Positions 6,672 to 58,810 of a stretch of DNA of 64,000 nucleotides are shown piece after piece. Position numbers and translations under genes: made by a program. This DNA comes from Hygrophila difformis (Eukaryota > Streptophyta > Magnoliopsida > Lamiales > Acanthaceae). Below the pieces are notes generated by a model. The model did no database searches. It was not told the DNA's origin and saw nothing but the letters and a program-made list of their open reading frames with translations. The stretch is taken from the NCBI GenBank assembly GCA_030278955.1, contig JAOANR010000002.1, forward strand, positions 14,406,238 through 14,470,237, in the 5' to 3' direction. The first letter of the stretch is position 1. Each line of letters opens with the position of its first letter.

Positions 6672-8225
6672 GTAAGATCTTGTTTATTCCTTTCCATTCA
6701 AGATTCGAAAACGAATCCTAATTAAACCTCTTTTCTATTCTAAACCCCGATCCGGACGCGTTGAGGAAAAACGAAGGATCTCGGAGGGAGAACGAAGAAC
6801 GTGGAAGCCACGCCTCCGAATCATCGAGCCGAGACATCCATAGATCTGTAAGTTAACGCTTACACGGTTTTGGGAGAATTAAAATACATGTAATCTAAAG
6901 AATGAAATCAAGAACTTAAAATCTGTCAACATGTGATTTTTTTTACCGGCGCAGCGATTTTGTCTAATTTTTCCGAACCTTTAAACGTCATCAAAAGGAA
7001 AAACTTAAAATACGAAAAACGTTCCTAAGACAAAGATCTATCTACTGTAAAAAATTCATAATTTTTCATCGTGTTTTGTTATCCGAAAACGACCACGAAC
7101 AGACCTGCCTTTGGTTTAGATCTTGAAACGGTGGCAGATTCTTAGTCCGAACTTGAGGTTGATTTTTGACTTAGATCTAGACCGATTCAGGATTGGTGCT
7201 AAACATAAGAGTTGTAGATCTATGCATTAAGAACACCTCCGTAAAATTTCAGAATTTTTCGTGATGATTTGATATATGAAATCCAGCCGAAACCGAACTG
7301 CTAGGATGTGGATCTTGAAATTCTTGACGGAACTTAGGTCAGAAGTTGACGACGTTTTTGACTAGGGTTCTAGGCTGATTTAGATCTTTTGCCGAACATG
7401 AAAGTTGTAGATAAACGTCTTAAAATGGTCTCTGTAAAATTGCATTAAATTTGGAGTTGATTTGCTATGGTAGATCTTGAAATTTAGGAACTGCTGTCGT
7501 AAAATTCGGACAGGTTTGTGTTTCTGCGAAAATTGATGTTTTTGACATGTTTCGGTATCTCGGATCGAAAATGTTAAAACACAAAAGTTGTTCATCTCGA
7601 CGTTTCTGAGTAACTAGTGAAATTTCGGAATTTTTGGAATTAAATCTGAATTTAGACGAATTTTAGAGTAAACAGTGGTTTACCGGAAGTCAAATCTTGA
7701 AATCTTGTTGAAACATGAAATTAGCCTTTAAGGTTTAAATGATTGGGAATTCCTTTGAAATAAATTACACATGAAATACGATGCTTGCCGAAAGGCAATT
7801 GAGATATAATGCTTGCCGAAAGGCAATTGAGATATAATGCTTGCCGAAAGGCAATTGATATATAAAGCTTGCCGAGAGGCAATTGATAAATAAAGCTTGC
7901 CGAATGGCAATTGAGATATAAACTTGAAACCTGAGACATGAGATATGAAACTAGAAGACTCGAAAATTGTTCCGTTTAGATTATGCCTTAAGTATGTCTT
8001 GCAATTGTTTTACTTTGCGAATTATATTTAGGATCTTATGAAATCTCTATCTTTTAAATTATGCCATTTAATTATTGTTAGATAAATAATTTAAATGATG
8101 TGGTGTTGTGTACATGTTTTCTCAAAATCTAAATAACGGCTTTGAAACCCCTTAATCATGATTGTGTTAACTTACTCAGCAAGTTTTTGCTGACCAAACC
8201 ATATTTTTTTTCCTTTTTCTTTCAG
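6672..8225 (+). other. Candidate LTR-embedded intron, copy B
   Basis: The G/GTAAGAT donor-like site is about 130 bp past the TATA box. The acceptor-like site TTTTTCTTTCAG/AG ends at 8225, preceded by CTTACTCA and TTGCTGAC, possible branch points. The same pair occurs at the same places in LTRs C, D, E, F and G. Splicing is inferred, not shown. Confidence 0.5.
7781..7920 (+). repeat. Five-unit tandem array with GNRA-type hairpins
   Basis: Five units of about 28 bp, each with TTGCC-GAAA-GGCAA followed by TTGA.ATATA. The loops are GAAA three times, then GAGA and GAAT; the five-base-pair stem is kept in all. It lies 300-450 bp upstream of the acceptor-like site, where LTRs C, E, F and G carry unrelated arrays. 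Confidence 0.9.
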
Positions 8226-8541
8226 AGTTGAGAATTATGCATCGTCATATGCATACATGGGAATTTTGAGAAGATATATTTTTTGAAATTATTGTATTAG
8301 ACTAGATCTTGCATGAACGGGCCTGTTTAACCCGTATTATGGCCGTGTTGGCTATATTTAATTTCCGCTGCATTATACATATGTAATTATTATTTTCCGC
8401 TGCAACTTTGATGTATTATTTTTAAATTATATATGAATGAGCTGTTTGAATATTTTTAATTTCTGAAAAACCATAGCCTTGCATCTCTTTAGTGAGCTCG
8501 GAGAAACCGTGTCTTGCTAGAGAGGTGTGGCGGTGACATCC

Positions 8542-9350
8542 CATATTTTTAAATTATATGTAATGTACTTTCAAAAAGATTATAATAATATACTTGCATG
8601 GTTTTATTTTATTCACAACAATACTCAAACCACAAAGTCTTCATGTCATCATCAAATAAAAGTTATAATCTATGAATATATTTTCTTATATATAAAAGTT
8701 AATTCTCATATATTCACATAAAAACTCATATTTTTATTTTTATAAAAATTTATTCCATAATGAATATCAAAATACTTAAAATATTCACATACTATCCTTA
8801 TAATAATTTTCAAGATCAATGTGTATATATATAAAAACTTATATATATAATTTAAACAATAGATTTAAAAAATATTCCATAAACTATATAATTCTATTAA
8901 CCTTGATATTGAAATTCATATTTCTTTTGGAAAAGACAAATTTACATATATAATTTTACAAGTGTTGTTTTGTAGAAAAAATAAATATACTAATTCTTTA
9001 AACAAGTGTTTAAATATTTAATAAAAGTCTACTTAATGAATTAAAATTATTTCGGGTAATTTCTATGGTATTACACTCTCCAACAACTTTTATAGACAAA
9101 AGCTTTGATTATTGATGATAGCCAATTTTGATTGTCTATCTCATCTTTTTTTTTTTTGTCTAATTTTGGAAATAATTAATCATATTTGCATGATTTTATA
9201 AGCAATCTAAAGGAAAATGCACAAATATGATGAAGTGCTTGCTGATAATGAAAACATCTAAAAATCATGCCAAAAATGCTCAAATCATGCTATAAATATA
9301 AGAGTTGGAAAAATCTCCTCTTGTGCATTAACCAAGATAAAGGGCGCACT
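8542..9350. other. AT-rich intergenic stretch
   Basis: There is no coding potential. Sequence between the broken end of LTR B and the TRIM is AT-rich. GGTATTACA at 9067-9075 looks like an inverted LTR start (TGTAATACC), so part may be a remnant of a further inverted LTR, but no target duplication was found. Confidence 0.4.
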
Positions 9351-11384: not shown

Positions 11385-11793
11385 GGGGTGTATTCAATTC
11401 AGATTTATATGGATTTTAAAGAGTTGGTGGATTTAGAAAGTCCATAGACTCCACGTAGAGTTTTCAGAGTCGATTGATTTTGTATAGACTCCATGTAGAG
11501 TTTGGCTGACTTTTAGAAATCCATGGATTTTTAGAGAGATTTTGTTTAGTTATATTTTTTAACAGAATCCATTAAAATCTATAAAGATTTAAAATCCATG
11601 GAATGTTGAATACACCTAGATTTTTAAAGACTTTTTAAAATCTGTATTGAATACACCTAGATTTTTAAAGACTTTTAAAAATCTGTATTGAATACACCTA
11701 AATTTTTAAAGACTTTTTAAAATCTAAATTGAATACACCCCAACTTTAAAAGTCCAAAAAAATCCTACAGACTCTACATTGAATACACCCCCC
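11385..11793. mobile_element. MITE with GGGGTGTATTCAAT inverted ends
   Basis: Starts GGGGTGTATTCAAT and ends with its complement ATTGAATACACCCC (plus two C). It is flanked by TCA on both sides, a possible 3-bp target duplication, and its insertion interrupts the repeat whose uninterrupted copy is at 12755-12870. There is no coding sequence. The 3-bp duplication points to a PIF/Harbinger-like element, but the class is uncertain. Confidence 0.8.
11605..11745. repeat. Three ~43-bp tandem units inside the MITE
   Basis: Three head-to-tail copies of a unit beginning TTGAATACACCTA and containing TTTTTAAAGACTTTT. The unit repeats the element's own terminal sequence, as if the end had been duplicated in place. 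Confidence 0.8.
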
Positions 11794-28479: not shown

Positions 28480-30310
28480 GTAAGTTCTGATCCGAATCTT
28501 GTTCCATATACGATTCGAAAACGAATCCTAACTTCGTCTTTTCTTTTCTACACCCTGAATCGGATCTAGAACGAAGAACCCGACGAACCGAGGAGATAAA
28601 CGGTGGACTGGAAGTCATGCCTCCGAGTCGACGATCCCGGACGACCAAATATCTGTAAATTAACCTTACTATGGTTTTGGGAGAATTTAAAATACACTTG
28701 ATCTAACGATTCAAACCAAGAACGTAAAAATCTGTCAACATGAAATCTTTAACGGCGCAACGGCTGTGCACGAATTTTTAGAACCCTTAACAAGTACTCA
28801 AACGAGAAAACTTAAAACATGAAAAACGTTCCTAAGGCTTAGATCTATCTCCTATAAAATATTCGGAATTTTTCATGTTGTTTTGAGACCTAAAACTGAC
28901 CCAAAACCGAACTGCATTAAATCTGGATCTTGGAATTCTTGACAGAACTTTAGTTCGAACTTGTTGGTGATTTTTACCTTAGATTTACACCGATCTAGGA
29001 TTGGCGTTGAACATAAGAATTGTAGATCTATGAGTTTAGAACATCCCTGTAAATTTTTAGAATTTTTTGTTGAGATTTGAACCTCCAAACCAGAGCCGAT
29101 CCGATCTGCATTTGTACCAAAATCAAGAACCTTGACAGAAATTAGTTTCGAACTTGAGCTAAAGATTAACTTCTGATCCGATGAGAATTGGGCTTTGAGT
29201 TCTAAATGAAAGTTGTAGATAATTGTCTTTAAAATCACCCTGTAAAATTAAAAATTTGGAGTTAGTTTGCTATGATAGATCTTGGAATCTTGAAACTGAT
29301 GCGTAGAAACTCGGACAGATTACCACCCTGTTAAAGATTGACATTTTTCACCTACTTCCATATCTCGGATTGAAAAACTTAAAACATGAAACTTGTTCAT
29401 CTATGTGTTTTCGAGTCACTGGTGAAATTTCAAAATTTTTGGAATTAAACTCGATTTCTAATGAATTTTGGAGTGAACTGTGGTTGACCGAGTCAAATCT
29501 TGAAATCTTGTTGAAACTTGTGAAATTTGCGAAACTTGTTTTGACCTTGCGGGTTCGATTCCCCAAGGGCGTCTGTGTCCCTGCGGGTTCGATTCCCCAG
29601 GATGTCTGTGTCAAGCCTTGCGGGTTCGATTCCCCAGGGTGTATGTTTTCCTGCGGGTTCGATTCCCCAGGATGTCTGTGTCAAACCTTGCGGGTTCGAT
29701 TCCCCAGGGTGTATGTTTTCCTGCGGGTTCGATTCCCCAGGATGTCCATATCAAACCTTGCGGGTTCGATTCCCCAGGGTGTGTCTTCCTGCGGGTTCGA
29801 TTCCCCAGGATATGTGTTGATTCCTATGGGTTCAATTCCCTAGGATGTATTTGAGTTCTTGCGGGTTCGATTCCCCAAGGGCGATTGTCTGTCTTCCTGC
29901 GGGTTCGATACCCCAGGACGTGTGTTGATTCCTACGGGTTCGATTCCCTAGGATGCGTTTAAATTCTTGCGGGTTCCATTCCCCAAGAACAAATTATACT
30001 AGATCTTATTGAACAAAAGTGGAAGAATGGAATCCTGAAATACTTGAATATTTTCCTTATTTAAATTATGCCTTTAAATTATGTCTTGCGATTATTTTAT
30101 CATGTTGTTGAATTATGATCTTATGGAAATCCTTGACTTTTAAATTATGCAATTAGATTATTATTAGATGGATAAAATTAAATCATGTCTTGTATGAACA
30201 TGTTTTCTTTAAATTTAATTAAAGGCTTTGAAACCCCATAATCATGTATGTGTTAACTTACTCAGCAAGTTTTTGCTGACCAAACCATATTATTTCCCTT
30301 TTTCTTTCAG
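28480..30310 (+). other. Candidate LTR-embedded intron, copy C
   Basis: G/GTAAGTTC donor-like site at 28479-28480; acceptor-like TTTTTCTTTCAG/AG ends at 30310. Possible branch sequences CTTACTCA and TTGCTGAC lie 30-60 bp upstream. In the 3' LTR the acceptor-like site is kept (34965), but the donor region was lost in the ~500-bp deletion at about 33561. Confidence 0.5.
29546..29989 (+). repeat. 13-unit array of tRNA T-arm/B-box-like hairpins (5' LTR C)
   Basis: Units of 33-37 bp, mostly two alternating types. Ten of 13 contain an exact GGTTCGATTCC, which fits the RNA polymerase III B-box consensus. The loop TTCGATT is closed by GGG/CCC, and an outer stem varies in step: CCTG/CAGG, CTTG/CAAG, CCTA/TAGG, TTCTTG/CAAGAA. 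No tRNA acceptor, D or anticodon arm accompanies the units. Several overlapping ORFs here are products of the repeat. Confidence 0.93.
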
Positions 30311-30658: not shown

Positions 30659-30672
30659 TGGTATCAGAGCCC
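30659..30672 (+). other. Primer binding site of element C
   Basis: TGGTATCAGAGCCC, a full match to the initiator-Met site, three bases after the LTR. Confidence 0.93.
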
Positions 30673-35311: not shown

Positions 35312-35570
35312 CATTGAGACCAATTCGGTCTTGCCAATTCGAAATAGCCAATTCGGTCTAGACCGAATTGGCCTAAACCGAATTGCCCTCATGCCTTAGA
35401 AAAATTACCCACCCTCTCAATTCGGTATAACCCAATTCGGTCTAGACCGAATTGCCTATATCGCATCAGTCAGCAATTATTTTCTAAGACTCCCAATTCG
35501 GTCTATTGGCCAATTCGGTCTAAACCGAATTGCACCCCATAAACCGAATTGCCCTCTGACTGTTATTTTA
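35312..35570. repeat. AATTCGGTCT palindrome cluster in LTR I
   Basis: Contains a perfect 26-bp palindrome at 35347-35372 and a 22-bp one at 35433-35454, both centred on CGGTCTAGACCG, plus about eight single half-words. More words continue after the Helitron at 37803-37945. Confidence 0.92.
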
Positions 35571-37773: not shown

Positions 37774-37999
37774 TTATTATTACTTGTAATATTTGTAAGT
37801 GTCCAATTCGGTCTTATGACCAATTCGGTCTAAACCGAATTGGCACCCCTTTCTCTTTTGTAATAGATAGGTTTGGTCCCAATTCGATCTAGGCCATACC
37901 AATTCGGTTTACACCATAGACCGAATTGATTCCCCTTTAACCGAATTAGGCCATTTTTGATATATTTTTCATTTCTCTTGTTTCCGAAGGGGCTTGGCC

Positions 38000-39502: not shown

Positions 39503-40330
39503 ATGATGAATAATCTCTATAACTCGGTCCATTATTGGCTTGTCGACCACCCTTCCGTTAGGGAATACGAATGGAAACGTGGCCAAACCCCGGGTTCATC
39601 TCCCTTCTTCCTCGCCCTCACCGTGCTTACCTACGTCACCCTCACGGTCGCCCTCCGTCGCTACCACCTCCATCTCCCCATACTACCCTCCCCCTACCAT
39701 ACCTTCATCACCACTCTCCACAACATCTTCCTTTGTCTCCTCTCCCTCGTGATGGCAATCGGGTGCATTCTGGCCACAATCTACCAAATCCGGGAGGACA
39801 ATCTCTACCTCTCGTGGCCCCTTTGTTTTCCCGCGGGCAACACTCCTCCTCGTGGCCCGACCTTCTTCTGGGGTTATGTCTTCTACCTCTCCAAGATCTT
39901 TGAATTCCTGGACACTTTGCTTATACTCCTTAGTCGATCCCGCACCCGACGACTTTCCTTCTTACATGTCTACCACCACGCCATTGTATTGGTGATGTGC
40001 TACTTGTGGGTGGCGACGTCGCAGTCGATGTTCCCTATCGGTGTGGTCACTAATGCGTCCGTACATGTGGTCATGTACGCTTACTATCTAATGACCGCGG
40101 TGGGGCTGCGGCCGCGCTGGAAGAGGAGGTTGACGGATTGCCAGATCGCACAGTTCTTATTTGGGAAGGCGCTGTCGGTGGTGATGCTCTACTTGCACTT
40201 TACCGGATCTAAAGGCTGCTCGGGGCTTTGGACTTGGGGATTCAGTTCTGCCTTTACTGTTTCGCTTCTCGCGCTTTTTCTAGATTTTCGTTTTAGGAAT
40301 TATTCCGCCTCCAGCATCAAAACCGCTTGA
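39503..40330 (+). CDS. ELO-family fatty-acid elongase-like protein (HOS3-like)
   Basis: A 275-residue intact, intronless membrane protein of the ELO family (elongation of fatty acids protein 3-like; Arabidopsis relatives include HOS3, AT4G36830). ELO proteins sit in the ER membrane and condense malonyl-CoA with long acyl-CoA in very-long-chain fatty-acid synthesis. Key motifs are present: KIFEFLDT (131-138), the histidine box LHVYHH (154-159, H155/H158/H159), MYAYY (191-195) and TDCQIAQF (211-218). Five to seven hydrophobic segments are visible, e.g. 34-50, 68-93, 160-170, 180-201 and 245-261. The N-terminus YWLVDHPSVREYEW is typical of plant members. Met1 and Met2 are adjacent; either may start. 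The C-terminus (SIKTA) lacks a clear dilysine signal. The gene is GC-richer than its flanks. The plant role of this subfamily is less well known than in yeast. Confidence 0.93.
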   Translation: MMNNLYNSVHYWLVDHPSVREYEWKRGQTPGSSPFFLALTVLTYVTLTVALRRYHLHLPILPSPYHTFITTLHNIFLCLLSLVMAIGCILATIYQIREDNLYLSWPLCFPAGNTPPRGPTFFWGYVFYLSKIFEFLDTLLILLSRSRTRRLSFLHVYHHAIVLVMCYLWVATSQSMFPIGVVTNASVHVVMYAYYLMTAVGLRPRWKRRLTDCQIAQFLFGKALSVVMLYLHFTGSKGCSGLWTWGFSSAFTVSLLALFLDFRFRNYSASSIKTA

Positions 40331-41974: not shown

Positions 41975-44405
41975 TATTTTACGAAATGTGAATTTATTTA
42001 AGTCGATCCAAGTTATGAGCTAACTCTAAGGAATTAAAATTTTTTAAGTGTAAAATCATTAAATTAACTTATAAGTATTAAATTATACTTTATTACCAAT
42101 TATTTAAATCCATATTAATTAGTTACGCCTATTTAATCAAAATTTAGTATAGTTATTTAGTCATCTTTAAATCCTTAGTCCTTGACCGATAATCGGATAT
42201 ATGTAATTTCAAAATATGCAATGAAGGATCCAGAAGGAGGTTTAGTCTCAAACAAGGTTTAATTATTAGAACCATGACAAGCTACAAGCTATCTGATTTT
42301 AAATAAAAAAGAATTATTATAAGCTTTTAATTAAAATGTATCGGACATGGATCAAATTGTATAATTGATCACTATAAATTGATTTAAAATACTTAGCAAT
42401 TCAATTATGGAACTAGTGACGGCCAAATTCTTAAGGAACCAATTGCCCAATTGTAATACCCCGGTTTTGGTAACCTAGATCGGGATGCTACCGCCACACC
42501 TTCCAAGCAAGACACGATTTCATTCGAGCTCACTTGAGAGATGCAAGGTTAAGGTATTTCAGAATATCATTTAAACACAAGCCCGCATGGTTTAATTTAA
42601 AATAATAAAATAACATTCATGCATAATAAGGGTAAGTAGCAGTGGAATTTAAAGTACGGGCCAACATGACCAAAACGCAGTGAGTAATTTTAATTTAATA
42701 AAAATGCGACATCGCGACAATGTTATATTCCCCTTCTCGATGCATGCATATGCTCATGCATATTCGCCATACTCTGAAAAAGAAAATAGCAATGTTTTTA
42801 TCAGTATATAAAATACTGAGTAAGTTAATTCCTAACATAGCAATAATGGATTTTAAAAAAATTAATTAATAAAAATTTACTTCTTATTCATGCTCATTTT
42901 TAACATAATATAAAGATAGGATTTGACTGAATAATTCATAAGAATTTAACTTACAGAGCGTATTTAATTCTTAAAAAAACGACAAGATACTAGATAAATT
43001 TAAAAATTAAATAAAACGCGTAGACATGAATTTAAAAGCATGCGAATAATTTAAATAAATAAAATGCACCATTAGGTCTTTTAATTTCCATTAACTAAGA
43101 GGATGACTCCACAATCAAGTTTCTCGAGTATCATGTTTCTCAGGTATAAAGTTTCAGAATTGCCGAAGCAATCCGGGTATCACGCCATAAACAATACCAC
43201 TCCGGAGCCTCGGGTAACCCATACGGATACACTCGAGAGTGTAGACTCGTATTTCAACTGCCGTTTTTGCACAATATCATAAAAGATCACTCTCGTCTAT
43301 ATAGGCACGATTTGATAAGCTAGAGGGGCACCCTGCAGAGCACGCACCCCCTACATCGCAAGTCGAGATCTAGCTCAACCTAGTAAAACGGGTTTTTGAA
43401 AATTGTTTTATCATTTTAATAAGGATTCCAACCATTAAGTTTAGAAAAACTCAAATTCAACAAGTATAGTAAATGTTCGTCAGAGTTCGCGCCTAAATCC
43501 GATTCTCTGGCGAACGAACAACTTTCTGTAATACCCGAGATTTTTATTGGTGTCCGAAGGAATAAAATTAGTTTCTGAATCCGATCAATGTCGAAATATC
43601 TCCGAGAAGAAGAAAATAATTTATCACAATAAAATTATTGCTCGAAAATGAAACGCCGATAGATTCAAAAATTCAAAATGGAATAGAAGAGGGAAAGGAA
43701 GCCCGAAGATATTCCATGGATTAATCCCAAAAGAATTGGAATTAAATTCAAGAAGGAAAAGAATTTTAATTCCAAGAACCCGTGAAGTCGGAAATAATTT
43801 AAATAGATAAATAATTGCACGGGAGCCAAAAGACTACGAATTAGAAGCCGACGAATCCAAACGGGACGGACTCAAGATTTCGGATACGAGATTAATTCGA
43901 GATGAGATAAATTTTAGATAAGAATTTGTAATCCGAGAATGACCCGGAAAAATCGAGCCCGAAAGAAATGGAACAGGTTTGGCGCAAAATGATCGCGTGC
44001 GCCAGATTTGGAGGAATGGCACAAAATTGCGCCAAGTCTGACAGTTACCAATTTTGCGAGTTCGCTAACCGGTCCGGATCGGAGCCATGCGGTCCCCGCG
44101 CGGGGACGCGCCAAGACCGTGCCATGACGCAGGGCCAGCTGCCTTGCACGATTATCGCGATTTTATTGCCTAAATTTCGACCCCCGATTTAGGTAAGTCA
44201 ATTCCAGCCGAGGGAAAGACATTTAGGTCGAATATGGGTGATCTCCCACCCCATATTCAGTCATCAACAGCCTTTCCTCATCCAAAATCTCTCCCAAAAC
44301 CGAAAACACAAAGCTTTACCTTCCGACGACTTTCCGACGAATTTCCGGTGACCAAAACCGACCGTAGAGGCGTGTAGATCGAAGGATACAGACTTTGGAT
44401 TGTTG

Positions 44406-46319
44406 GTAAGGGCTAGATTAGGTTCCTTTGTCGTTTACAATCACAATAATCATTCTAACTTACGGATTTTTACTTGAAAACACAAATCGGAGCCAAAGGA
44501 AGAGGAAATCGGGACCGAAGAGAAAGAGACGTGTAGATTAGACGCGTTCACGGACTCCGGAGGGAATCCCGACGAAATCTAAGACTCTAGATCTTAGATA
44601 CTGTAAGTTGATTCTTCTCATAACCGTTTTGGTGCCCTAAAATCGAATGGAATGCAAGTTTTAATCAACGTACGAAAATCTGTCCCAAAAACTCTCCCTA
44701 CGCGCGCTTTCTGAAACCCGACTTTTAAACCCCTTTCGAGCATTCAACTAGAGAAACTTAAAACTACAAACTTGTTCCTAATGAGTTAAAGTATATCGTG
44801 TTAAATTTTCAGAAATTTTTGTCGACGTTTGATCCGTCAAATCGGATCTGGTATTTTCTGAGTTATTCTTCAAACCCGAAAAAGTTGACAGAATTTCATG
44901 TCCAACTTCCTTGACCTTTTTCTAATGGATCCCATCAAAAATAAACTTTTATGTAAAAACAAAAGTTGTAGCTAACTGTCTAAATATTGTGTCCGTAAAA
45001 TTTCACGCGTTTTCGTTAACGTTTGTGTAGTCAAAAACCATTTTGAATAGACTGTGGTTTAAAGGAAAAGTTGACAGATTTGAGTGTTCAACTTCTTTGA
45101 CGTTTTTCTTAAGGATTCCTTCAAAACTAACCTTTGGAGTAAACATGAAAGTTGTAGATAATTGTTTTAAGAAGGTGTGGTTAAAAATTCGTGAATTTGG
45201 GTTAACGTTTGTGTCGTCAAATACGATCCGAACAGTCTGCATTTGAAATAAAATTCTGACAGAGTATGTAGGCGAAGTTGATGGGCGTGTTTCTACCATT
45301 TCTAGACCGAAATAATCTTTGCAATATAAACAAAAGTTGTAGATAATCATGTCTAGTATATGTCCACCAAATTTCAAAATTTTTGGAGTCCATTTGATAA
45401 GTCGAAAAATCGGATGGTTGAATTGCGTCAAACCTGAAATCCTGGCAGCATACTATTTGTGTAGAAAACTCGATTTTTGACATGTTTCCTCACCTTATTT
45501 CGAAATTGTTAAAACACGAAAGTTGTTAGTTAGGGTGTCGTTGGTGTACTGTAAACATTTCAAGTCGTTCGCCTGAGAAATGAATTTTTAGAGTAAAAAG
45601 GCGTAATCTGCGACGTGTGTGCTTATTAAACTTTGAAATTTATGGAAACCCTCCTTGCGACACTTTCAACTATTTTGAAAACTTTGTGATTTATGATCAA
45701 ATTGGAAACTATGAAATATTGACTATGTGGCTTGTGGACATAAGAGCCCAAGCGTACGACTAGCGGACATAAGAGCCCAAGCGTACGACTAGCGGACATA
45801 AGAGCCCTAGTGAAACATTGATTATGAGGCTTGTGGACATAAGAGCCCAAGCGTAAGGCTAGTGGACATAAGAGCCCTGGCGGATGGTGATTTATAAGGC
45901 TAGTGGACATAAGGGCCCTAGCGAATTGTGATTTGTGAGGCTTGTGGATATAAGTGCCCAAGCGGAATACGGTGACTTTGATCATATTGAAACCCAGTAG
46001 AATAATGAAATATTAGTTATGCGAGAACATATATTTTATCCCATGATTTTTAAAACCCTTCGTACTTAATAAATCCTTTGTTAAATTTTTGAAATTTATA
46101 TACTTAATATTCGTGTACGTCTCTTTACATTTAGAATCATGCCTTTAAATCCCTATTATCAATGTTGTCAAAATACGTTTTCATATTATAAAATGTGCAT
46201 GAGTTAAAAGGTGAATTTTTATTAAGTACTTTTTAAAACCCATTACTGTTATGTTAAGAATTAACTTACTCAGTATTTTATATACTGATAAAACCCGTTA
46301 TTTTATTTTCCTTTTTCAG
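44406..46319 (+). other. Candidate LTR-embedded intron, 5' LTR E
   Basis: GTAAGGGC at the start, TTCCTTTTTCAG at the end, with TTAACTTACTCA 50-60 bp before it. The 3' LTR has the same pair at 49498 and 51439. Confidence 0.5.
45727..45963 (+). repeat. Seven-unit hairpin array with covarying stems (5' LTR E)
   Basis: Units with the core GGACATAAGAGCC flanked by arms that pair: GCTTG/CAAGC, ACTAG/CTAGT, GCTAG/CTAGC and GCTAG/CTGGC (G-T pair). One unit of seven has a mismatched arm. The core loop hardly varies. Confidence 0.9.
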
Positions 46320-46639
46320 AGTATGAAGAATGACATGAGCATGCACGCATATTGGGGGCTCATGAATTAAATTAGTAATTATGAATGTTGTATTTTGTTA
46401 GACTTAAATTACCCACTGCGTTTTGGCCATGTCGGCCCATATTTAAATTTTCCGCTGCGACTTATTTTGAATTATACTATGTTATTTTAAAGTAAATCCT
46501 TTTGGGCTTGTTTTTAAATTATTTTTGAAATACCGTTAGCCTTGCATCTCTCAAGCGAGCTCGAATGAACTCGTGTCTTGCTTGGGAGGTGTGGCGGTGG
46601 CATCCCGGCCTGGGTTATCAAATCCGGGGTGTCACAAAG

Positions 46640-46653
46640 TGGTATCAGAGCCC
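46640..46653 (+). other. Primer binding site of element E
   Basis: TGGTATCAGAGCCC three bases after the LTR. Confidence 0.93.
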
Positions 46654-47178
46654 GGAAATATTTTTAAATTATTATTATTATTTTTGGCCAATATAGAGGC
46701 CCAATGATTTTTAAACAAATATTAATATTATTTTTAAATTTTTTTAGTACCATTATTATTATTTTTAAATTTTAAGTTTTATTTCCATGGAACAAAATTT
46801 ATTTTAAACCCATTGAAAATATTTACATATGCATAGAAATCTTTTCCAACAAGTTTTTAAGGTCACGAAAATATTTTTTTTCGGGGTTGGGGTAGGATTG
46901 TATAAAGCATACATGCATTCGCATACATACATACATGAATATTGCGCTAATTTTTTTTATGTGAATTAACAATGTCAAAACTCTTACCTTAAAATTTGTC
47001 ATGACCTTGACTCAGAAGCGGTTGCTTAAAACTAATTTTGCCTTAGTCCTAGAACTTGATCACCTAAGTTTAGCATGCTCCTATCTATTACCTCTTGCCA
47101 ATCCTATCTTATAGATTTTCTTGAACGCTAACTTGCCTTAGTTTAGAAACTCATCTTCACGTGCGTTGATAACAGAAA
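46654..47178 (+). other. Leader of element E
   Basis: AT-rich, noncoding, about 520 bp; ends at the gag ATG after GATAACAGAAA, like GTAACAGA before the C gag. Confidence 0.7.
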
Positions 47179-48281
47179 ATGGCACCTAAGGGAAAATCGA
47201 GGAAGGAAATCCCAAACAACACCAACGCTGACCTCCCCAACGCACCCAACAATACCGAGATTGCTCATAACGTAGGAGGGCAAGCGCCTCCTATTCCCAA
47301 TAATTTGGACGAACGCCTAAGAACTATGGAAGAAGTCCTCATAGCTTTGGGAAACGCCGAGGTACGAAGGACACCAGTGGTGTACCACCGCAGGCAGCCC
47401 GACTCAACTACCTAGCGTTAGTGAACCCTTACCAGCCAACCCACTATGATGGCCAAGAGGATCCGGCCAAACTGGAAGATTGGATCCGCACCTTTGATAA
47501 GCTCCTTAGCCCTATCAAATGTCCCGAGGACGAGAAGGTCCAAGTGGCGACCCACTATCTTGGCGGAGAGGCCGACGAATGGTGGCATAACCTCCAAGGA
47601 AATTTGACTAAAGCCTACCTATGGGAAGAATTTAAGGAGGTTTTGAGGGAAAGGTTTTACCCAATGAGCATTATGGCCGCAAAGTATGAAGAATTCGTCC
47701 ATTTGAAACAAGGTGGGCAAACGGTACAAGAGTACTATGCCAAGTTTAAGGAGCTGGTTAGATTTGCTCCTACAATGGTGCCAACTGACTTCGACAAGGC
47801 TCAGAAGTTCGAGATGGGTTTGAATCTTGATATTCGAGAGATATTGGTGGGAGGACAATGCACGACTTTGCAGGCGGTATATGACCGGGCAGTAGCAGTC
47901 GCGCGTGTCCAACAAATTAAGCGAAAGGACAATGGCGAATCGAGCAAAAACTCGCAAGGATTTGAGAAGAAGAATCGTAATAAGAACAACAATAATAACT
48001 TTAGGAGGGGCAATGATCAAGCTAGATTCGATGGGTCTAGAGGGAATGATAACCGTGGTGCATTCATACCAAAATGCTTGCGGTGCAATCGACCGCATCT
48101 GGTGCGCCGGTGCCCGAAGCCTGGAGCCTGCAATAAATGCGGCAAGTTTGGTCATAAGGCTATGGGATGTCGAATTCCAGAGGAGGCGATCGAAAGGAGA
48201 ATAGATCTGGTGAACCTTCAGCAAGGAGAGGCTGACAAGGTACAAAGTCAAAACCCGAACATCCTTGAGAATAATGCGTAG
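47179..48281 (+). pseudogene. Gag of element E, one frameshift
   Basis: The first frame, 47179-47415, gives the variable N-terminus (MAPKGKSRKEIPNNTN ... RTMEEVLIALGNAEV). A shift of one base near 47378-47390 moves to 47421-48281, which holds the capsid (VNPYQPTHYDGQEDPAKLEDW, HYLGGEADEWW, LRERFYPMSIMAAKYEEF, KFEMGLNLDIREILVGGQ). Two intact knuckles follow: CLRCNRPHLVRRC and CNKCGKFGHKAMGC. It is full length apart from the shift. The second frame alone would still encode the capsid and nucleocapsid, but its start is not clear. Confidence 0.92.
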
Positions 48282-48609
48282 GCAGTTATGGGGGCATAAC
48301 TGTAATCTTAAGGGGGGGAGGATGTAACGACCCCGAATATTTTGCATCCCAAATCAATAAATAAACAAATTCAAATTGTTTTGAACTACGTAATAACTTG
48401 ATCCCTTCACAGGGTACGTAGGCAACTTGGAAATTTCAATTCTGGGTTCATTCAAACAATAATCAAACAACAAACAATCAACAATCAAACAATAATTCAA
48501 TAACACAATATCACAAAATAATAAAATAAACAAAAGGACCCTAACTCTTAGCGCGAGAAAAGTCGAAACACAACTTCGAGAATGAAGTTGATTCTTAAGG
48601 GGCGTAGAC
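48282..48609 (+). other. 3' noncoding end of element E with double PPT and hairpin
   Basis: First tract AAGGGGGGGAGGA with TGTAACGACCCCG (48311-48336); CCCTTCACAGGGTACGTAGG near 48404; stem-loop AACTTCG-AGAA-TGAAGTT near 48572; second tract, then the LTR at 48610. Confidence 0.75.
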
Positions 48610-51600
48610 TGTAATACCCGAGATTTTTATTGGCGTCCGAAGGAATAAAATTAGTTTCTTAATCCGATCAATGTCGAAATATCTCCGAGAAGAAGAAAAT
48701 AATTTATCACAATAAAATTATTGCTCGAAAATGAAACGCCGATAGATTCAAAAATTCAAAATGGAATAGAAGAGGGAAAGGAAGCCCGAAGATATTCCAT
48801 GGATTAATCCCAAAAGAATTGGTATTAAATTCAAGAAGGAAAAGAATTTTAATTCCAAGAACCCGTGTAGTCGGAAATAATTTAATTAGATAAATAATTG
48901 CACGGGAGCCAAAAGACTACGAATTAGAAGCCGACGAATCCAAACGGGACGGACTCAAGATTTCGGATACGGGATTAATTCGAGATGAGATAAATTTTAG
49001 ATAAGAATTTATAATCCGAGAATGACCGAGAAAATCGAGCCCGAAAGAAATGGAACAGGTTTGGCGCAAAATGATCGCGTGCGCCAGATTTGGAGGAATG
49101 GCACAAAATTGCGCCAAGTCTGACAGTTACCAATTTTGCGATTTCGCTAACCGGTCCGGATCAGAGCCGCGCGGTCCCCGCGCAGGGACGCGCCAAGACC
49201 GCGCCATGACGCAGGGCCAGCTGCCTTGCACGATTATGGCGATTTTATTGCCTAAATTTCGACCCCCGATTTAGGTAAGTCAATTCCAGCCGAGGGAAAG
49301 ACATTTAGGTCGAATATGGGTGATCTCCCACTCCATATTCAGTCATCAACAGCCTTTCCTCATCCAAAATCTCTCCCAAAACCGAAAACACAAAGCTTTA
49401 CCTTCCGACGACTTTCCGACGAATTTCCGGCGACCAAAACCGACCGTGGAGGCGTGTAGATCGAAGGATACAGACTTTGGATTGTTGGTAAGGGCTAGAT
49501 TAGGTTCCTTTGTCGTTTACAATCACAATCATCATTCTAACTTACGGATTTTTACTTGAAAACACCAATCGGAGCCAAAGGGAGAGGAAATCGGGACCGA
49601 AGAGAAAGAGACGTGTAGATTGGACGCGTTCACGGACTCCGGAGGCCATCTCGACGAAATCTAAGACTTTAGATCTTAGATACTGTAAGTTGATTCTTCT
49701 CATAACCGTTTTGGTGCCCTAAAATCGAATGGAATGCAAGTTTTAATCAATGTACGAAAATCTGTCCCAAAAACTCTCCCTACGCGCGCTTTCTGAAATC
49801 CGACTTTTAAACCCCTTTCGAGCATTCAAACAGAGAAACTTAAAACTACAAACTTGTTCCTAATGAGTTAAAGTATATCGTGTTAAATTTTCAGAAATTT
49901 TCGTCGACGTTTGGTCCGTCAAATCGGATATGGTATTTTCTGAGTTATTCTTCAAACCCGAAAAAGCTGACAGAATTTCATGTCCAACTTCCTTGACCTT
50001 TTTCTAATGGATCCCATCAAAAATAAACTTTTATGTAAAAACAAAAGTTGTAGCTAACTGTCTATATATTGTGTCCGTAAAATTTCACGCATTTTTGTTA
50101 ACGTTTGTATAGTCAAAAACCATTTTGAATAGACTGTGGTTTAAAGGAAAAGTTGACAGATTTGAGTGTTCAACTTCTTTGACGTTTTTCTTTAGGATCC
50201 CTTCAAAACTAACCTTTGGAGTAAACATGAAAGTTGTAGATAATTGTTTTGAGAAGGTGTGGTTAAAATTTCGTGAGTTTGGGTTAATGTTTGTGTCGTC
50301 AAATTCGATCCGAACAGTCTGCGTTTGAAATAAAATTCTGACAGAGTATGTAGGCGAAGTTGATGGGCATGTTTCTACCATTTCTAGACCGAACTAATCT
50401 TTGCAATATAAACAAAAGTTGTCGATAATCATGTCTAGTATATGTCCACCAAACTTCAGAATTTTTGGAGTCCATTTGATAAGTTGAAAAATCGGATTGT
50501 TGAACTGCATCAAACCCGAAATCCTGGCAGCATACTATTTGTGTAGAAAACTCGATTTTTGACATGTTTCCTCACCTTATTTCGAAATCGTTAAAACACA
50601 AAAGTTGTTAGTTAGGGTGTCGTTGGTGTACTGTAAACATTTCAAGTCGTTCGCCTGAGAAATGAATTTTTAGAGTAAAAAGGCGTAATCTGCGACGTGT
50701 GTGCTTATTAAACTTTGAAATTTATGGAAACCCTCCTTGCGACACTTTCAACTATTTTGAAAACTTTGTGATTTATGATCAAATTGGAAACTATGAAATA
50801 TTGATTATGTGGCTTGTAGACATAAGAGCCCAAGCGTACGACTAGCGGACATAAGAGCCCTAGTGAAACATTGATTATGTGGCTTGTGGGCATAAGAGCC
50901 CAAGCGTATGACTAGCGGACATAAGAGCCCTAGTGAAATATTGATTATTAGGCTTGTGGACATAAGAGCCCAAGCGTAAGGCTAGTGGACATAAGAGCCC
51001 TGGCGAATGGTGGTTTATAAGGCTAGTGGACATAAGGGCCCTAGCGAATTGTGATTCGTGAGGCTTGTGGACATAAGTGCCCAAGCGGAATACGGCGACT
51101 TCGATCATATTGAATAAAAGTAGAATGAAACATTAGTTATGCGAGAACATATATTTTATCCCATGATTTTTAAAACCCTTCGTACTTAATAAATCCTTTG
51201 TTAAATTTTTGAAATTTATATACTTAATATTCGTGTACGTCTCTTTACATTTAGAATCATGCCTTTAAATCCCTATTATCAATGTTGTCAAAATACGTTT
51301 TCATATTATAAAATGTGCATGAGTTAAAAGGTGAATTTTTATTAAGTACTTTTTAAAACCCATTACTGTTATGTTAAGAATTAACTTACTCAGTATTTTA
51401 TATACTGATAAAACCCGTTATTTTATTTTCCTTTTTCAGAGTATGAAGAATGGCATGAGCATGCACGCATATTGGGGGCTCAGGAATTAAATTAGTAATT
51501 ATGAATGTTGTATTTTATTAGACTTAAATTACCCACTGCGTTTTGGCCATGTCGGCCCATATTTAAATTTTCCGTTGTGACTTATTTTGAATTATACTAT

Positions 51601-51755
51601 GTTATTTTAAAGTAAATCCTTTTGGGCTTGTTTTTAAATTATTTTTGAAATACCGTTAGCCTTGCATCTCTCAAGCGAGCTCGAATGAACTCGTGTCTTG
51701 CTTGGGAGGTGTGGCGGTGGCATCCCGGCCTGGGTTATCAAATCCGGGTGTTACA
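48610..51755 (+). repeat. 3' LTR of element E
   Basis: Near-identical to 43527-46636, with one more hairpin unit. It ends CGGGTGTTACA followed by the CTTTC duplication. Confidence 0.95.
50811..51086 (+). repeat. Eight-unit hairpin array (3' LTR E)
   Basis: Same unit as at 45727-45963, but eight copies, and here every unit has matching arms (GCTTG/CAAGC or ACTAG/CTAGT or GCTAG/CTAGC type). The unit number has changed since insertion while flanking DNA hardly has. Confidence 0.9.
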
Positions 51756-53144
51756 CTTTCGTTCTTTAGGTTTTTCAAGATAAGTGAGGAGTCAAGTCAA
51801 AAATTGATATTTCTACAAAATCTTCATGCTGTCAGAATTATAGATTCGGCAAACTGTTTTAAACCGATTTTTCGACATATCAAACGAGTTTCAAAAATTC
51901 TGAAAATTTACGGACACATACTAGACATGATTATCTACAACTTTTATTTGCATTGCAAGGGCTAGTTTGGATCGTACCTAATAGAAAAACACTGATTTAG
52001 TTCGATTTGAAAAGCTGTCAGATTGTTTCGGATTTCACAGAAAATGCAGACGCAACCAGATTAATTTTGGAGGTTTAATTGTCGATGAAAATTCATGAAA
52101 TTTTAACACAAGATACTCTAGGGTCTTGGGAACAAATTTGTAGTTTTAACCTTTTCCTTTTGAACAATAGAGAAGGCTCTAATAAGCGGGTTACAGAAAC
52201 TGCACACAGTGAGTTCTCTAGGGACAGATTTACATTCATTCATTAAATCCTACAATCTATTCGACCTAGGGGTGCCAAAATTGATATGGAAGGAAGCTAA
52301 CTTACTATGGATTGGTTCTTGGGCTTTCGATTTTGTCGGGTTGGCCTCCTGGATCAACGAGCAAGTCCGAATCGCTACTCTTTCTCTTCTTCGGGTCCGA
52401 TTCGTGGTCACAAGATAAGAAACTAAATGTTAGATCCTAAAATTGACCCAAAATTCATGAAATAAAAACTAGATTCATCTCTTACCAATCTACAACGGTG
52501 GTGTGTGTCGAAATCCTCCCTATGTGCCTTCTTCTTCGTCGAATTCGTCCTCAAACGCTCTCGAACTAGGTTTTTTTTGAATTTTGATGGTGGAAGAAGA
52601 TGTGGGGTGGTTAAAGGATATCTAGGAGCTAGATATGGGGTATTTATAGTCCCTAAGTAGTCTAACACATCCAAGGTCGGTTAGGCAAGTCTTGAGGCGC
52701 AAGAAGTGGAGTAAACGGCGAAAAATCCGGAGTCGGGCGAGCGAATCTCATCGGGGGCGCTACTGCCAGGTTTGGCACGCCCATGGGGCATTTTTGCCCC
52801 AAAACCGTGCGACCACCGCGCCCGCTTGGCCTGGGCTTCAGCCTAGGCCGGGCCGTGCTATCCTATTGAGTCTTTTCTCTTCTCTTTTTGGCTTCTACCT
52901 TCTACGTTCTTGGGCTTTAATATTCGGGTTACTCTCGGGCTATAAATTCCTATTTTTAAATTCATTCCGAACTCGAATGAATTTCGTATTCGAAATCTTG
53001 AATTCGTCGGTTATTAGCTTTCGTGCCACAATTTATTTAATTAAATTATTTTCGACTCCACGGGCTCGCGGAATTTAAGTTCTTTTTGATCTTCAAATTA
53101 AATTCCATTTCTTTTTAAACGTTACTAAATTCGTGGGTGTTACA

Positions 53145-53510: not shown

Positions 53511-53842
53511 TGTAACACCCCGGATTTAATAACCCAGGCCGGGATGTCACCGCCACACCTCCCTAGCAAGACACGGATTCTCCGAGCTTGCTAAAGAGAT
53601 GCAAGGCTATGGGTATTGCAAAGAGATTTAAAAACAAGTCTGGAATTTATTTAAAAATAATAATAAGTATCATCCACACATATAGTAGTAATAATAATAT
53701 ATCGCAGCGGAAAATGTAAAGTGGGCCGACACGGCCAAAACTCGGGATTTACATGCCCGATATGCAAGTATCATAAAAAGCGATAAAACAATGTTTAATA
53801 ATTCCATCCCCCAATGCACATGCTATGCATTATCTCCGTACT

Positions 53843-55407
53843 CTGAAAGAAAGAGAAACACAACAATTTTATCAGTATATAAAATACTGAGTAAGTCGAT
53901 CCTAACATAGCAATAAAGGGGTTTCATTAAATAATTAAGTTTTACTCCAAGGCATGCATACAAAAATATTCCATTTACCAATTTAAAAATAAATAATTTA
54001 GTCGTACACTTGAACATGCATTAAATTTATAAATAATAACTTAACATGTTATAAAATTTAAGGCATAAATTTAAATGCAAAATTTAAAGACAAGAATAAA
54101 TAAATAAATACATAAAAAGTATTAAATCTTTTAATTTTTCCCGTTACGTCTCCGTTTCTCAATATTTAGTGTAGCCGGTCATCCGGCGGCCGCAGCCGTT
54201 TCGTATTTCACGTATTTCAAGTATTTCAAAGTATTTCACGATTGCATCGCAATCTCGTCAAGTTTAGCCGGTCATCCGGCGGCCGCAGCCGTATCTGCCA
54301 TACCCAAAGCATTCCGGAGCCTCAGGGAAATCCATACGGATAATCCCGAGAGTGTAGGCCATGTATCTCCCGCCGTTTGGCGTAATATCTCATCTAATTT
54401 CTCTCGTCCATTATAGGCCCGAAGAGAAAGGCTAAAGGGGCACCCTGCAGAGCACTCACTCTCCTCCAAGTATCTCATATGTTTCAATTTAGTGTAACGG
54501 GATTTTTCAAAAGTATAGATGTATCGTATTTCAAGGTCTCGACCGTTTGTTTCGAAATTTCAAAATCTCTTCGATTTAAAATCATTTGGCGTCACAGTTT
54601 ACGCCTTTTTAATTTGAAAATTCATCTCAAGTCCAAAAATTCTGAAATTTTCACGGTTATCAAAAACACCCTAACGAACAACTTTCATGTTTTAACAATT
54701 TCGTAATAAGTTGAGGAAACATGTCAAAAATTGAGTTTATTGCACAATATATACACTGTCAGGATTCAGGTTTACCATAGTTCAGGAAATTGACGTTTTG
54801 ACCTAACAATTGGACTCCAAAAATTCTAAAATTTTATATGCACATACAAGACATAATTATGTACAACTTTCATTTAGATTGCAAAGATCAATTCGGACTA
54901 GAAAAGATAGAAACAGGCTCATCAAGTTCAGACGTCAACACTGTCAGATTTTCGAAAACGTTTTACAAGGCAGTTTATGTTCGGATTATTTTGGGGTAGC
55001 AAACGTTGATGAAAATGGCTGAAATTTTTACACAAGATAGATTAATGTGTTAGGAACAAAAGTCTAGTTTTGAGTTTCTCAGATTGGATTATCAAAATAT
55101 GAAATTTAATCGGATTTCAGAAATTGCACAAGATAGTGTTTTTAGGTTCGGTTTTTACGTTTCGTTACAACATGACTAAATCGGACGCCCCTAAGCCACC
55201 CGTATTGATATGAAAGGCATCAACTTACAGTGATGGTGTTCTTGAGTCATCCTAGGGCTGCTCGGCTCGTCCAAAGCTACTTCGAACGAATCCTTGCACA
55301 CGTCCTCTTCCTCCTTCAGTCACGAACGTGTTTAGGAGTCCAATATTCGAAAGTTAGATTAAGGATTGGAGATAAAAACAAGAAAAAGGAATCTGAGTAC
55401 TCCTTAC
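53843..55407 (-). other. Candidate LTR-embedded intron, copy G
   Basis: Sense G/GTAAGGAG at 55407 leftward, acceptor-like CTTTCTTTCAG/AG ending at 53843. Same layout as B, C, E and F. Confidence 0.48.
54171..54296 (-). repeat. Two-unit GCCGG hairpin array and CTC/GAG stem-loop region (LTR G)
   Basis: Two units GCCGG-TCAT-CCGGC-GGCCGCAGCC, 90 bp apart, inverted relatives of the units in LTR F. Next to them (54300-54350) is a stem-loop around TATCCGTATGGA whose arms are CTCGGGA/TCCC.GAG, against CTCGAGT/ACTCGAG in F. Confidence 0.82.
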
Positions 55408-58401
55408 CAATGATATAAGGGATGTAAACCTTGATCTGCACGTTCCTACGGTCGTCGTTGGTCGCCGGGAGTCGCCGGAAGTTCGTCGGAAGTTCGTCGG
55501 AAGGGTGTTTTGGCTTGGGAGAGTTTGAGAGTGAATGGGAGGCTGTGGGAGGCTGACAATGGCGTGGAGATTAACCCTAGGTCGTCCTAATACTCCTTCC
55601 CCCGTCCAAAATCTACTTTCCATTGTCGGGTGTTGTAATTTTGGCAAGAAATCGCCGAAAACGCGTGAATGGCCGGATTCTGTGGTGCCACGCGGTGGTG
55701 GCACGCTGGTAGGCCAAACACCGCGTGGCCAACGCGCGGCCTCCGCCGGGACCTCGGTCCGGGCGGGTCCGTGCGATCCGATCCGTCGGGTCTTTTCCTC
55801 CTCTCTTTCGGGTTTCTATCCTTCCGTGTTTTCGGCTCGACTTTCCGGGATCTTTTCGGATTGTGATTCTTACCCTAATTTTATTCCGACTTAAATTGAT
55901 TTCATGTTTGAAATCTTAAGTCCGTCGGTCTTGGGTTTTCTTTCGACTTCCGTACATTTTCAATTTTACGGGTTCTCGGAAACAAGTCCTCTTTTCTCAT
56001 CGGATTAAATTCTCATTTTATATCCTAAAATTAACGGGTATTACAATCTACCCCCCATAAGAATCAACTTCGTCCTCGAAGTTGTGCTTTACCATCTCGC
56101 GAGTTCGGGAATTGTTTGATTCAGCGATTGTATTATTGTGTGTTGTTGTTTGTTATTATTTGACTGAACCCAGAATTGAAATTTCCAAGTTGCCCGTGAA
56201 GGGATCAAGTCATTACGTAATCCAAAACAATTGGAATTTGTTTATTTAGGATACAAAATATTCGGACAAAAATATCCGAAAATATTCGGGCCGTTACATC
56301 CTGTAATACCCCGAATTTTTATCAACGTCCAAGGGAATAAAATTTATTCCTATCAATGTCGAAATATATCCGAGAAGAAGAAAATTATTTATCACAATAA
56401 TTTATTGCTCGGAAATGAAACGCCGATAGATTTAAATTCAAAATGGAATAAAAGAGGGAAAGGAAGCCCGAAGACATTCCATGAATTGAGTAAAAATAAT
56501 TGGAGTTAAGTTCATGAAGGAAAAGAATTTTAATTCCAAGAACCCGTGAAGTCGGAAGAAATTTAATGATACAAGTTATTGCACGGGAATCAAAAGACGA
56601 CGAATTGAAAGCCTACGAACCCGAGACCGACGGACTTAAGATTTCAAACATGAAATTCATTTGAGTCGAGATAAATTTAAGATAAGAATTTATGACTCGA
56701 GAATGACCCGAAAAATCGAGCCCGAAAACGTAGGAGGATAGAAGTCCAAAAGAGAGGAGAAAAAGCCCGACGGATCGCACGACCCCGCCCGGACCGAAGT
56801 CCAGGCGTGTTTGGCGCGCACCCCGCGCGGGGTTCTTCACATTCCCGCGCCAACCCCGCGCCAAAGTCCTGACAGCAACACCTTGTCGCGTTTTGGCGAC
56901 TTTCTCGCCAATTTTCGGGGCCCAAGGTTGGGAATCTGATCTATCACGGGAGGGAACATCTTTTGGACGTTATGTAATCAATCCCATCTCATTTGTCAGC
57001 CATTTTCATCAATCATTCACCCCAAAACTCTCCCAAACTCTCCCAAAGCCAAACACCCTTCCGGCGGACTTTCCGACGAGTTTCCGGCAACCAAATCCAA
57101 CCAAGGAAGTGTGTAGATCAAGGATTGCAGGCTTTGGATTGTTGGTAAGATGTTATTCAAGTTTCCTTATGATTTTAAGACCATAAACATCATCCTAACT
57201 TACGAATCTTCGTATTCAAACACAAATCGGAGCCAAGGGAAGAATAAATCGGGTGGAAGAGATTCGTTCGTGACATCCCGTGGATTCCGGACGACCCCGT
57301 GACTTCCTAAACATCATCCCCACTGTAAGTTAACCTTACTATGGTTTTGGGTGACTTAAAATGCAACCAAACATAGAGATTCAACTCAAGAAAATTTATA
57401 AAAATCTGTCAACAAGAGAAACCCTCAACGCAGCGTTTTCGTATGAATTTTTCAAACCTCTAAAGCTGCTCAAACAATAAAACTCAAAACATAAAAAGTG
57501 TTCCTAAGACATTAATCTAGCTACTGTAAAAATTTTAGAATTTTTCATGATGTTTTGAAACCTGAAACCAACCCAAAACCGAAGAGTTTTAAATTTGGAT
57601 CTTAGAACTTTGGCAGATTTCACTCTCAATCTTGTTGGCCATTTTGACCTTGGATCTAAGCCGATCTAGGATTGGTGTTGAACATGAAAGTTGTAGATCT
57701 ATGAGTCTTGAATACCTCTGTAAAATTTCATGCATTTTCATCAAGTTTTGATACCCCAAATCGAGTCGGACATACTCTGCGTTTTAAAGAATTTTCAAAG
57801 GTTGACAGTTTTCTTAACCGAACTTGATGAGCATATTTCTATCATATCTAGTCCGAACCAATCTATGTGATCTAAACAAAAGTTGTTGGAAATCAAGTCT
57901 AGTATGTGTCTGTAAAATTTCAGAATTTTTGAAGTCCATTTGATATGTCAAAAAGTCAAATCTTTGAGAGGTGTCAAACCTGAATCCTGACAGCTTTTTG
58001 TTTCTGTAGAAAACTTGATTTTTGACATGCTTGCTATCATTTTTCCGAAAAACTCAAAACATGAAAGTTGTTCATTGGGATGTTTTTGAGCTACTGTGAA
58101 AATTTCAGATCAATCGCCTAAGAAATGGATTTTTAAACTGAAAAGGCGTAAACTGTGACATCGATCGGTTTTAACTTGTGAAATTTTGAAATTTTTAAAC
58201 AACGATCGAAATCTTGTGATACGATAAAGCTATATTTTTGAAAATCCCGTTACACTAAAGTTGAAACAATATCGGTTACATAAAATCAGGGGGTGAGTGC
58301 TCTGCAGGGTGCCCTCCTAATTGTTCATTTTGTGCCAAAACGGCAATGATTATTACGCGCGAAAGATCGCCAAAACGGCATCTTATTATTTTGGGCCTAT
58401 C

Positions 58402-58552
58402 CTCTCGAGTGTATCCGTATGGGTTACTCGAGGCTCGACGGAGCGGTACTGGATATGGCGTATTTGGTCACAAGAGACCAACGGCCTACCCTCTCGAGTG
58501 TATCCGTATGGGTTACTCGAGGCTCGACGGAGTGGTACTGGGTATGGCGTAT
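58402..58552 (+). repeat. Two ~89-bp direct repeats with CTCGAGT/ACTCGAG stem-loop
   Basis: Each copy has CTCGAGTGTATCCGTATGGG then TTACTCGAGGCTCGACGGAG; the arms CTCGAGT and ACTCGAG pair. The counterpart in LTR D keeps five of seven pairs; in G other bases pair. Confidence 0.85.
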
Positions 58553-58810
58553 CGGCTGCGGCCGCCGGATCACCGGCTAAAATGACATGATACTTATGAA
58601 ATTGGCTGAGGCCGCCGGATCACCGGCTAACTGTTACTATTGATATTGGCTGCGGCCGCCGGATCACCGGCTAACTGTTACTATCGATATTGGCTGCGGC
58701 CGCCGGATCACCGGCTATCTGATATATTGTTGAGATGATGGCGTAACGGGAAATATATTAAAAAGCTCAGATTTTATGAAATTGACTGCGGCCGCCGGAT
58801 TGCCGGCTAA
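58553..58810 (+). repeat. Five-unit GCCGG hairpin array (LTR F)
   Basis: Units with GCGGCCGCCGGATCACCGGC (one has GAGGCC, the last has ATTG as loop). The stem GCCGG/CCGGC with a four-base loop is exact in all five; spacers of 20-80 bp vary. Confidence 0.9.

Follow-up and report, generated by a model that had tools for sequence, protein, structure and literature searches.

Can related retrotransposons replace the sequence of a structured segment while keeping its fold and its place? The question is raised by a 64,000-nt stretch of the Hygrophila difformis genome (hereafter the window), which is packed with nested long terminal repeat (LTR) retrotransposons of this flowering plant. Six related Ty3/gypsy-type families, termed B, C, D, E, F and G and together 'group 2', were compared inside the window. 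At one homologous place in their LTRs, several of these families carry tandem arrays of small hairpins that differ in sequence. Our tentative answer, to which we assign a probability of roughly 0.4, is that this place is a hypervariable leader segment that has repeatedly been filled with amplified hairpins, retained for a role as RNA signals in the unspliced RNA of the element.

Arrays were found by tandem repeat search (TRF) and their units then folded. Every unit type is predicted to form a hairpin, as the initial annotation of this DNA had stated. That annotation placed an array in each group 2 LTR; arrays of at least five units are indeed present in families B, C, E and G, but F has two units and D, which the annotation did not list, has none. 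Array B (7781–7921, + strand) consists of five 28-nt units of the form TTGCC-N4-GGCAA, with invariant arms and the loops GAAA (three units), GAGA and GAAT. Family C has two array copies, C5 (29545–29985, +) and C3 (34200–34640, +), each with 13 hairpins; the unit is a bulged stem with a T-arm-like 7-nt loop (GGG-TTCGATT-CCC in C5). The unit of family E is a bulged stem with the loop ATAAGA, present seven times in E5 (45736–45966, +), where one unit is a hybrid with broken pairs, and eight times in E3 (50794–51087, +). Array G (58550–58870, +) holds five GCCGG-N4-CCGGC units with invariant arms (centre ATCA in four, ATTG in one), and the F pair (about 54165–54300, −) comprises two GCCGG-ATGA-CCGGC copies 93 nt apart. 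F and G units are therefore of one type, so that the proposed lack of sequence relationship between families holds for B, C, E and F/G, that is, for four unit types and not five.

The arrays occupy corresponding positions. The distance from array end to an acceptor-like AG is 304 bp in B, 325 bp in C5 and C3, 353 bp in E5, 352 bp in E3, 399 bp in G and 322 bp in F, and array starts lie 444–765 bp from it, close to the 250–700 bp first proposed; short repeats in D sit 340 bp from the same site. Families B and C provide the clearest replacement. The B and C5 LTRs align at 72.6% up to positions 7725 and 29530, respectively, and again at 84.5% from 7955 and 30039, with unrelated arrays between them: different arrays at one homologous place. 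Among the 15 pairs of the six array-place segments (D included), only F–G was clearly related (0 of 200 shuffles reached its score), followed by F–D (5 of 200), G–D (16), B–E (22) and E–D (22). The downstream flanks beat all 60 shuffles in 14 of the 15 pairs, with E–G tying the best shuffle. Upstream flanks did so in 12 of 15, where B–D and C–D fell below the best shuffle and E–D equalled it, the D flank in these comparisons being only 175 bases long. The likeness between F and G is confined to the hairpin and adjoining GC-rich bases, with ungapped identity of 0.69–0.97 over the hairpin block and 0.23–0.38 outside it.

Two further features lie upstream of the array place. The first, a larger hairpin with the loop TATCCGTATGG, is common to D, F and G (58395–58550; 54300–54360, −; 43182–43260, −), with two copies in G; by eye, F and G seem to differ in both of its arms. 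The second is a motif around AAAGTTGTAGAT...GTAAAATTTCA, repeated several times within an LTR at intervals of 180–193 nt (7202–7454, 29010–29442, 33663–34098, 44956–45386, 50038–50283 and 57681–57932).

Covariation within the arrays was scored against shuffles, using helix limits that, for C, E and the constant hairpin described below, were chosen after the folds had been seen. In the 13 units of C5 (the count did not include the 13 units of C3), the inner eight pairs were paired in 103 of 104 pair-by-unit cells, with changes between G-C and A-U, among C-G, U-A and U.G, and among U-A, C-G and U.G. The whole C5 helix was 86.9% paired, compared with 81.7% in shuffles; 14 cells were changed on both sides (6.6 in shuffles) and the covariation score was 0.272 (0.167 in shuffles), values that none of 500 shuffles reached. 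For E, 15 units were entered, 13 of them distinct, and 101 of 104 cells paired (97.1%, against 90.6% in shuffles), with seven double-change cells (2.9 in shuffles) and a score of 0.231 (0.125 in shuffles), again with 0 of 500 shuffles as high on either. Three E cells are unpaired, owing to the hybrid unit and to a single difference between E5 and E3. On three of five measures, C and E exceed the shuffles in covariation, the significance being overstated because the units descend from each other by duplication. When the partner was shifted by one to three columns, the score dropped and did not exceed 0.142 in C or 0.019 in E.

Hairpins are also more alike than the spacers between them: unit-to-unit identity for hairpin and spacer is 0.91 and 0.55 in C, 0.85–0.86 and 0.45–0.46 in E, and 0.94 and 0.58 in G. 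The proposal that sequence was replaced while fold and position were kept is therefore supported by the compensatory arms of C and E, by conserved hairpins set against drifting spacers and by the homologous flanks around the B and C arrays.

The segment is bracketed by conserved splice-like signals. A first donor-like site (GGTAAG), at 6671–6677 (+) in B, has homologues at 28479, 44405, 49487, 55408 (−) and 57144 and in D, and is absent from C3. A second (GTAAGTT) lies at 6847–6855 (+) in B. TGGTAAG stands at one place in all six families while its flanks differ, and GTAAGTT in five of the six, C5 reading GTAAATT; E and F contain single further GTAAG matches. A CTATAAATA box precedes the first donor-like site by ~150–160 nt in B, C5 and D and is found at the matching place in C3. 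Downstream of the arrays, all eight LTRs show the same order: a CTTACTCA element, a hairpin place, a pyrimidine tract and a CAGAG acceptor-like site. In B this module spans 8171–8225 (+), with the hairpin TCAGCAA-loop-TTGCTGA, the pyrimidine tract and a CAG acceptor-like site; its homologues lie at 30257–30310, 34912–34965, 42774–42824 (−), 46265–46319, 51385–51439, 53843–53895 (−) and 59217–59269. The constant hairpin (TCAG...CTGA, up to 7 bp), directly before the acceptor-like site, covaries between two family groups, with 54 of 56 cells paired, seven double-change cells compared with 3.3 in shuffles (2 of 500 as high) and a covariation score reached by 0 of 500; one pair is broken in C3 and the stem is shorter in G. 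Folds of B, C, D and G also contain a palindromic ATGCAT hairpin after the acceptor-like site.

With donor-like signals on one side and an acceptor-like signal on the other, the array falls within a predicted leader intron, downstream of a putative transcription start. By retroviral logic, R-U5 is copied from the RNA 5' end, and an intron spliced from genomic RNA would vanish from new LTRs. That the LTRs have kept the segment suggests replication through the unspliced RNA. On the reading that we favour, the hypervariable segment between the conserved donor-like sites and the hairpin-plus-acceptor module would have been filled repeatedly through tandem amplification of short inverted-repeat units. 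The resulting hairpins would present a multivalent landing pad on unspliced RNA, with Gag or an RNA-binding protein of the host as the most likely partner, and would act in packaging, dimerisation or export; spliced RNA, lacking the hairpins, would serve translation. Restricted to unspliced RNA, the hairpins could provide a natural mark for any of these three steps.

Several observations weigh against this reading. LTR D carries, in place of an array, only one ATTGC-TTCG-GCAAT hairpin (~43157–43173), and its 16-nt repeat (43114–43155) folds no better than shuffles (mean z-score 0.24). The arms of B, F and G never vary and are uninformative for covariation, and in B the contrast between hairpin and spacer identity is small (0.94 and 0.87). 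Part of the contrast in C and E comes from spacer classes that differ in length. Each of the two outer pairs of C5 fails to form in 8 of the 13 units. The two remaining covariation measures, pairs with a double change and further pair types, are ordinary in C5 (78 and 182 of 500 shuffles as high), in E (216 and 495) and in the constant hairpin (358 and 496), so covariation, which the initial annotation had proposed to check, gave a divided outcome here. With units related by duplication, independent double changes are few, at about three pairs in C and two in E. Because the donor-like sites were selected by their motif, part of their invariance arises by construction, and it is their agreement in place that counts; the CTATAAATA box was not found in LTRs E, F and G.

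The comparison of folding energy with shuffles, also proposed at the outset, gave weak results. In 120-nt windows with 60 shuffles, a scan that left out the C3 and E3 LTRs and the D 5' half placed parts of arrays B, C, F and G at z-scores of −2 to −4.9, but array E at −0.8 to 0.1, apart from −2.4 at its edge; values of −4 were also reached elsewhere in the LTRs. In short windows, mean z-scores placed the group 2 arrays other than F between 7th and 12th among the 35 tandem-array rows of the window. With array windows this unexceptional, folding energy was rejected as proof of a selected fold. Wobble polarity was rejected as proof of RNA in the same way, because it did not discriminate: departures to G.U and A.C numbered 4 and 1 in C5, 4 and 1 in C3 (plus one other), 2 and 1 in E5 (plus one other) and 1 and 1 in E3, the C counts include a single inherited event three times over, and as events the two kinds are about equally rare. 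A selected structured RNA module is partly supported but unproven; mutation templated by the hairpins themselves could also produce matched arm changes.

That last point belongs to the strongest alternative, which is a real possibility and stands close to the reading that we favour. Here the segment would be a neutral hot spot in which hairpins pause reverse transcriptase or DNA polymerase, template switching amplifies hairpin units and templated correction mimics compensation. The E arrays fit such a process: E5 and E3 differ in length (seven and eight units, 41 gap columns), which makes further change of the array after insertion probable. Other tandem arrays in the window fold too, among them a 41-nt array outside group 2 (11606–11739) whose unit folds strongly (lowest z-score −5.3). 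Abnormal strand transfer has been proposed as the origin of the similar hypervariable arrays of Ogre/Tat elements, as far as the consulted part of that study describes it (PMC7004042). Purely mutational amplification accounts less readily for hairpins that stay similar while the spacers between the same units drift. Differences that separate the two LTRs of a single element arose after insertion and hence serve as a small control. Orthologous C and E units show three such differences at paired sites; those at 29789/34444 (C) and 45736/50818 (E) break a pair and that at 45949/51072 (E) makes a G.U, so that none of the three is compensated. The hybrid unit, found only in E5 and presumably made after insertion, likewise has two broken pairs. 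We made no use of the slower divergence of the C arrays (5 of 441 positions, against 51 of 1,311 in the rest of the LTR pair; Fisher p = 0.003), because E did not show it (8 of 231 and 71 of 2,873; p = 0.38).

Selection on RNA hairpins also admits a broader form, which we consider unlikely. The leader intron would be a fixed slot of a modular cis-acting RNA platform that takes any tandem hairpin cassette, with fold, multiplicity and place kept while close relatives swap the signal sequence. Such swaps, which would perhaps change the binding partner too, would allow escape from silencing or provide specificity between competing elements and gag-only ones.

The arrays might instead act as DNA palindromes, that is, as an enhancer-like module, positioned downstream of the promoter, of repeated sites at which dimeric transcription factors or other proteins contact the DNA. 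B and F/G have the invariant arms and variable 4-nt centre expected of a palindromic DNA site, the centre being always 4 nt long (five of five and seven of seven units). C and E show the opposite, with largely conserved loops and arms that exchange on both sides, as expected of an RNA hairpin, which makes the DNA-level account improbable for group 2 as a whole.

Array C raised one further possibility. The B-box GGTTCRANNCC matches the loop and inner stem in 25 of its 26 units (12 of 13 in C5, 13 of 13 in C3), compared with 1.17 matches expected in the window, and all 25 fall in the two C arrays in element sense. The array may derive from a tRNA or short interspersed element (SINE) piece, and a TFIIIC role is possible for family C alone. 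An A-box was not found in either C LTR at up to one mismatch to the consensus, so that a full RNA polymerase III (Pol III) gene is not favoured; Rfam gave no family in the window at gathering scores and none for array C5 at E-values up to 1, and ARAGORN found no tRNA in the window. A Pol III-type module of 13 B-boxes, bound by TFIIIC and serving as an insulator or as part of an internal promoter, much like the 5S-derived promoter of Cassandra, is therefore very improbable as the general explanation, as it leaves B, E and G unexplained and needs neither the bulge nor the covarying outer arms of C.

The elements that carry these LTRs are partly incomplete. LTR limits were set from terminal motifs, primer-binding sites and mutual similarity, giving two copies each for C and E, one full copy and the start of a second for G, and one each for B, D and F. 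LTR B (5967–8545, +) is the 3' LTR of a truncated element that has lost its 3' end, identified from its start motif and its homology to the C and G LTRs. C5 (28271–30655, +) has lost its 5' part, and C3 (32962–35311, +) lacks the 497-bp stretch that in C5 (28406–28902) holds the donor-like sites. The solo LTR D (−) is divided into a 3' half (42452–43526) and a 5' half (51756–53144) by element E, which is inserted into it with a 5-bp target duplication (CTTTC) and is bounded by E5 (43527–46636, +) and E3 (48610–51755, +). LTR F lies at 53511–56045 (−) and G5 at 56302–59596 (+); G3 starts at 63608 and continues past the window end.

The internal regions of C (30656–32961) and E (46637–48609) contain gag-type frames and resemble gag-only non-autonomous elements. 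Pfam searches of seven of the eight open reading frames (ORFs) of at least 200 aa, the minus-strand ORF at 47619–48347 being left out, found no pol domain, and a complete pol is seen in no group 2 element of the window. CX2CX4HX4C knuckles occur in the Gag frames of C and E and only a CX2CX3HX4C form in B; the Pfam zf-CCHC cut-off was reached by C alone. The primer-binding site TGGTATCAGAGC, which we take to be of the initiator tRNA-Met type, begins three bases past the LTR ends of C5, E5 and G5. We assume that group 2 elements are Tekay-like plant chromoviruses, a label with which the primer-binding site agrees, while no Pfam chromodomain was found; the G fragment, an incomplete piece, matched SH3_Tf2-1 but no Pfam Chromo model up to its stop. 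A tRNA-Met site up to three nucleotides from the LTR is given as typical of beet chromoviruses in the part of that study drawn on here (PMC3605345). In element G, an antisense ORF (60683–62089, −) with a Pfam 'putative plant transposon protein' domain recalls the antisense ORFs that the consulted sections of one study report for Retand elements (PMC11963269).

Near other retroelements, a palindromic repeat forms AATTCGGTCT/AGACCGAATT clusters in both orientations (4240–4500, 35318–35560 and 37879–37918). A fatty-acid elongase gene (39503–40330) best matches Andrographis paniculata (73% identity), followed by Buddleja, Rehmannia and Paulownia, all of which we take to be Lamiales.

Hypervariable, family-specific arrays are already known from the Tat lineage, and hairpin arrays within LTRs are a new variation on them. 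The hypervariable 3' untranslated region tandem repeats of Tat-lineage elements were reportedly described by Macas et al. in 2009. As the consulted portions of two studies describe them, Ogre and Retand elements carry family-specific tandem arrays at a fixed place in plant Ty3/gypsy elements, and the repeats differ from one element to the next in both sequence and length (PMC7004042, PMC11963269). Four of the six group 2 families share this pattern, whereas F, with two units, and D, with none, fall short of it. The location differs: Tat-lineage arrays are described there as lying between pol and the 3' LTR, but group 2 arrays lie inside the LTR, in the predicted leader intron, about 300–765 bp before the acceptor-like site. 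The main texts of both studies use 'hairpin' and 'secondary structure' zero times, and 'palindrom' occurs in that of PMC11963269 twice, both times in one reference title on insertion targets. For soybean Ogre minisatellites, any function is given as unknown in the consulted part of the report (PMC3305785). Among the top matches in the open-licence literature, we found no description of hairpin arrays inside LTRs, and one pattern scan of viral_contigs for related DNA elsewhere gave 0 matches.

To our knowledge, the packaging and dimerisation signals of retroviruses and Ty1 do not take the form of tandem arrays with wholesale sequence replacement. The likeness lies in retroviral packaging stem-loops and the Ty1 5' dimerisation domain being structured 5' cis-acting elements on genomic RNA, and retroviruses package unspliced RNA, according to the sections of these sources used here (PMC7599994, PMC5454406). 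The copia element BARE, a plant LTR retrotransposon, offers a precedent for splicing and for separate RNAs in translation and packaging; splicing there yields a subgenomic gag RNA, and the abstract mentions no LTR hairpin array (PMC3735527). The terminal-repeat retrotransposon in miniature (TRIM) Cassandra also has a structured, Pol III-related sequence in its LTR, but in the account consulted this is one 5S-like domain conserved across plants and not a set of interchangeable tandem hairpins (PMC7215508).

Discussion of tandem arrays in plant retrotransposons has so far centred mostly on their role as seeds of satellite DNA. Were the fold under selection, the group 2 arrays would give direct access to the way in which genomic RNA is marked in plant Ty3/gypsy elements, and exchanges of arrays could be read as natural experiments on altered specificity between RNA and Gag. 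If the process is mutational, the arrays would show hairpins driving the birth of arrays. Either outcome is testable on existing plant genomes.

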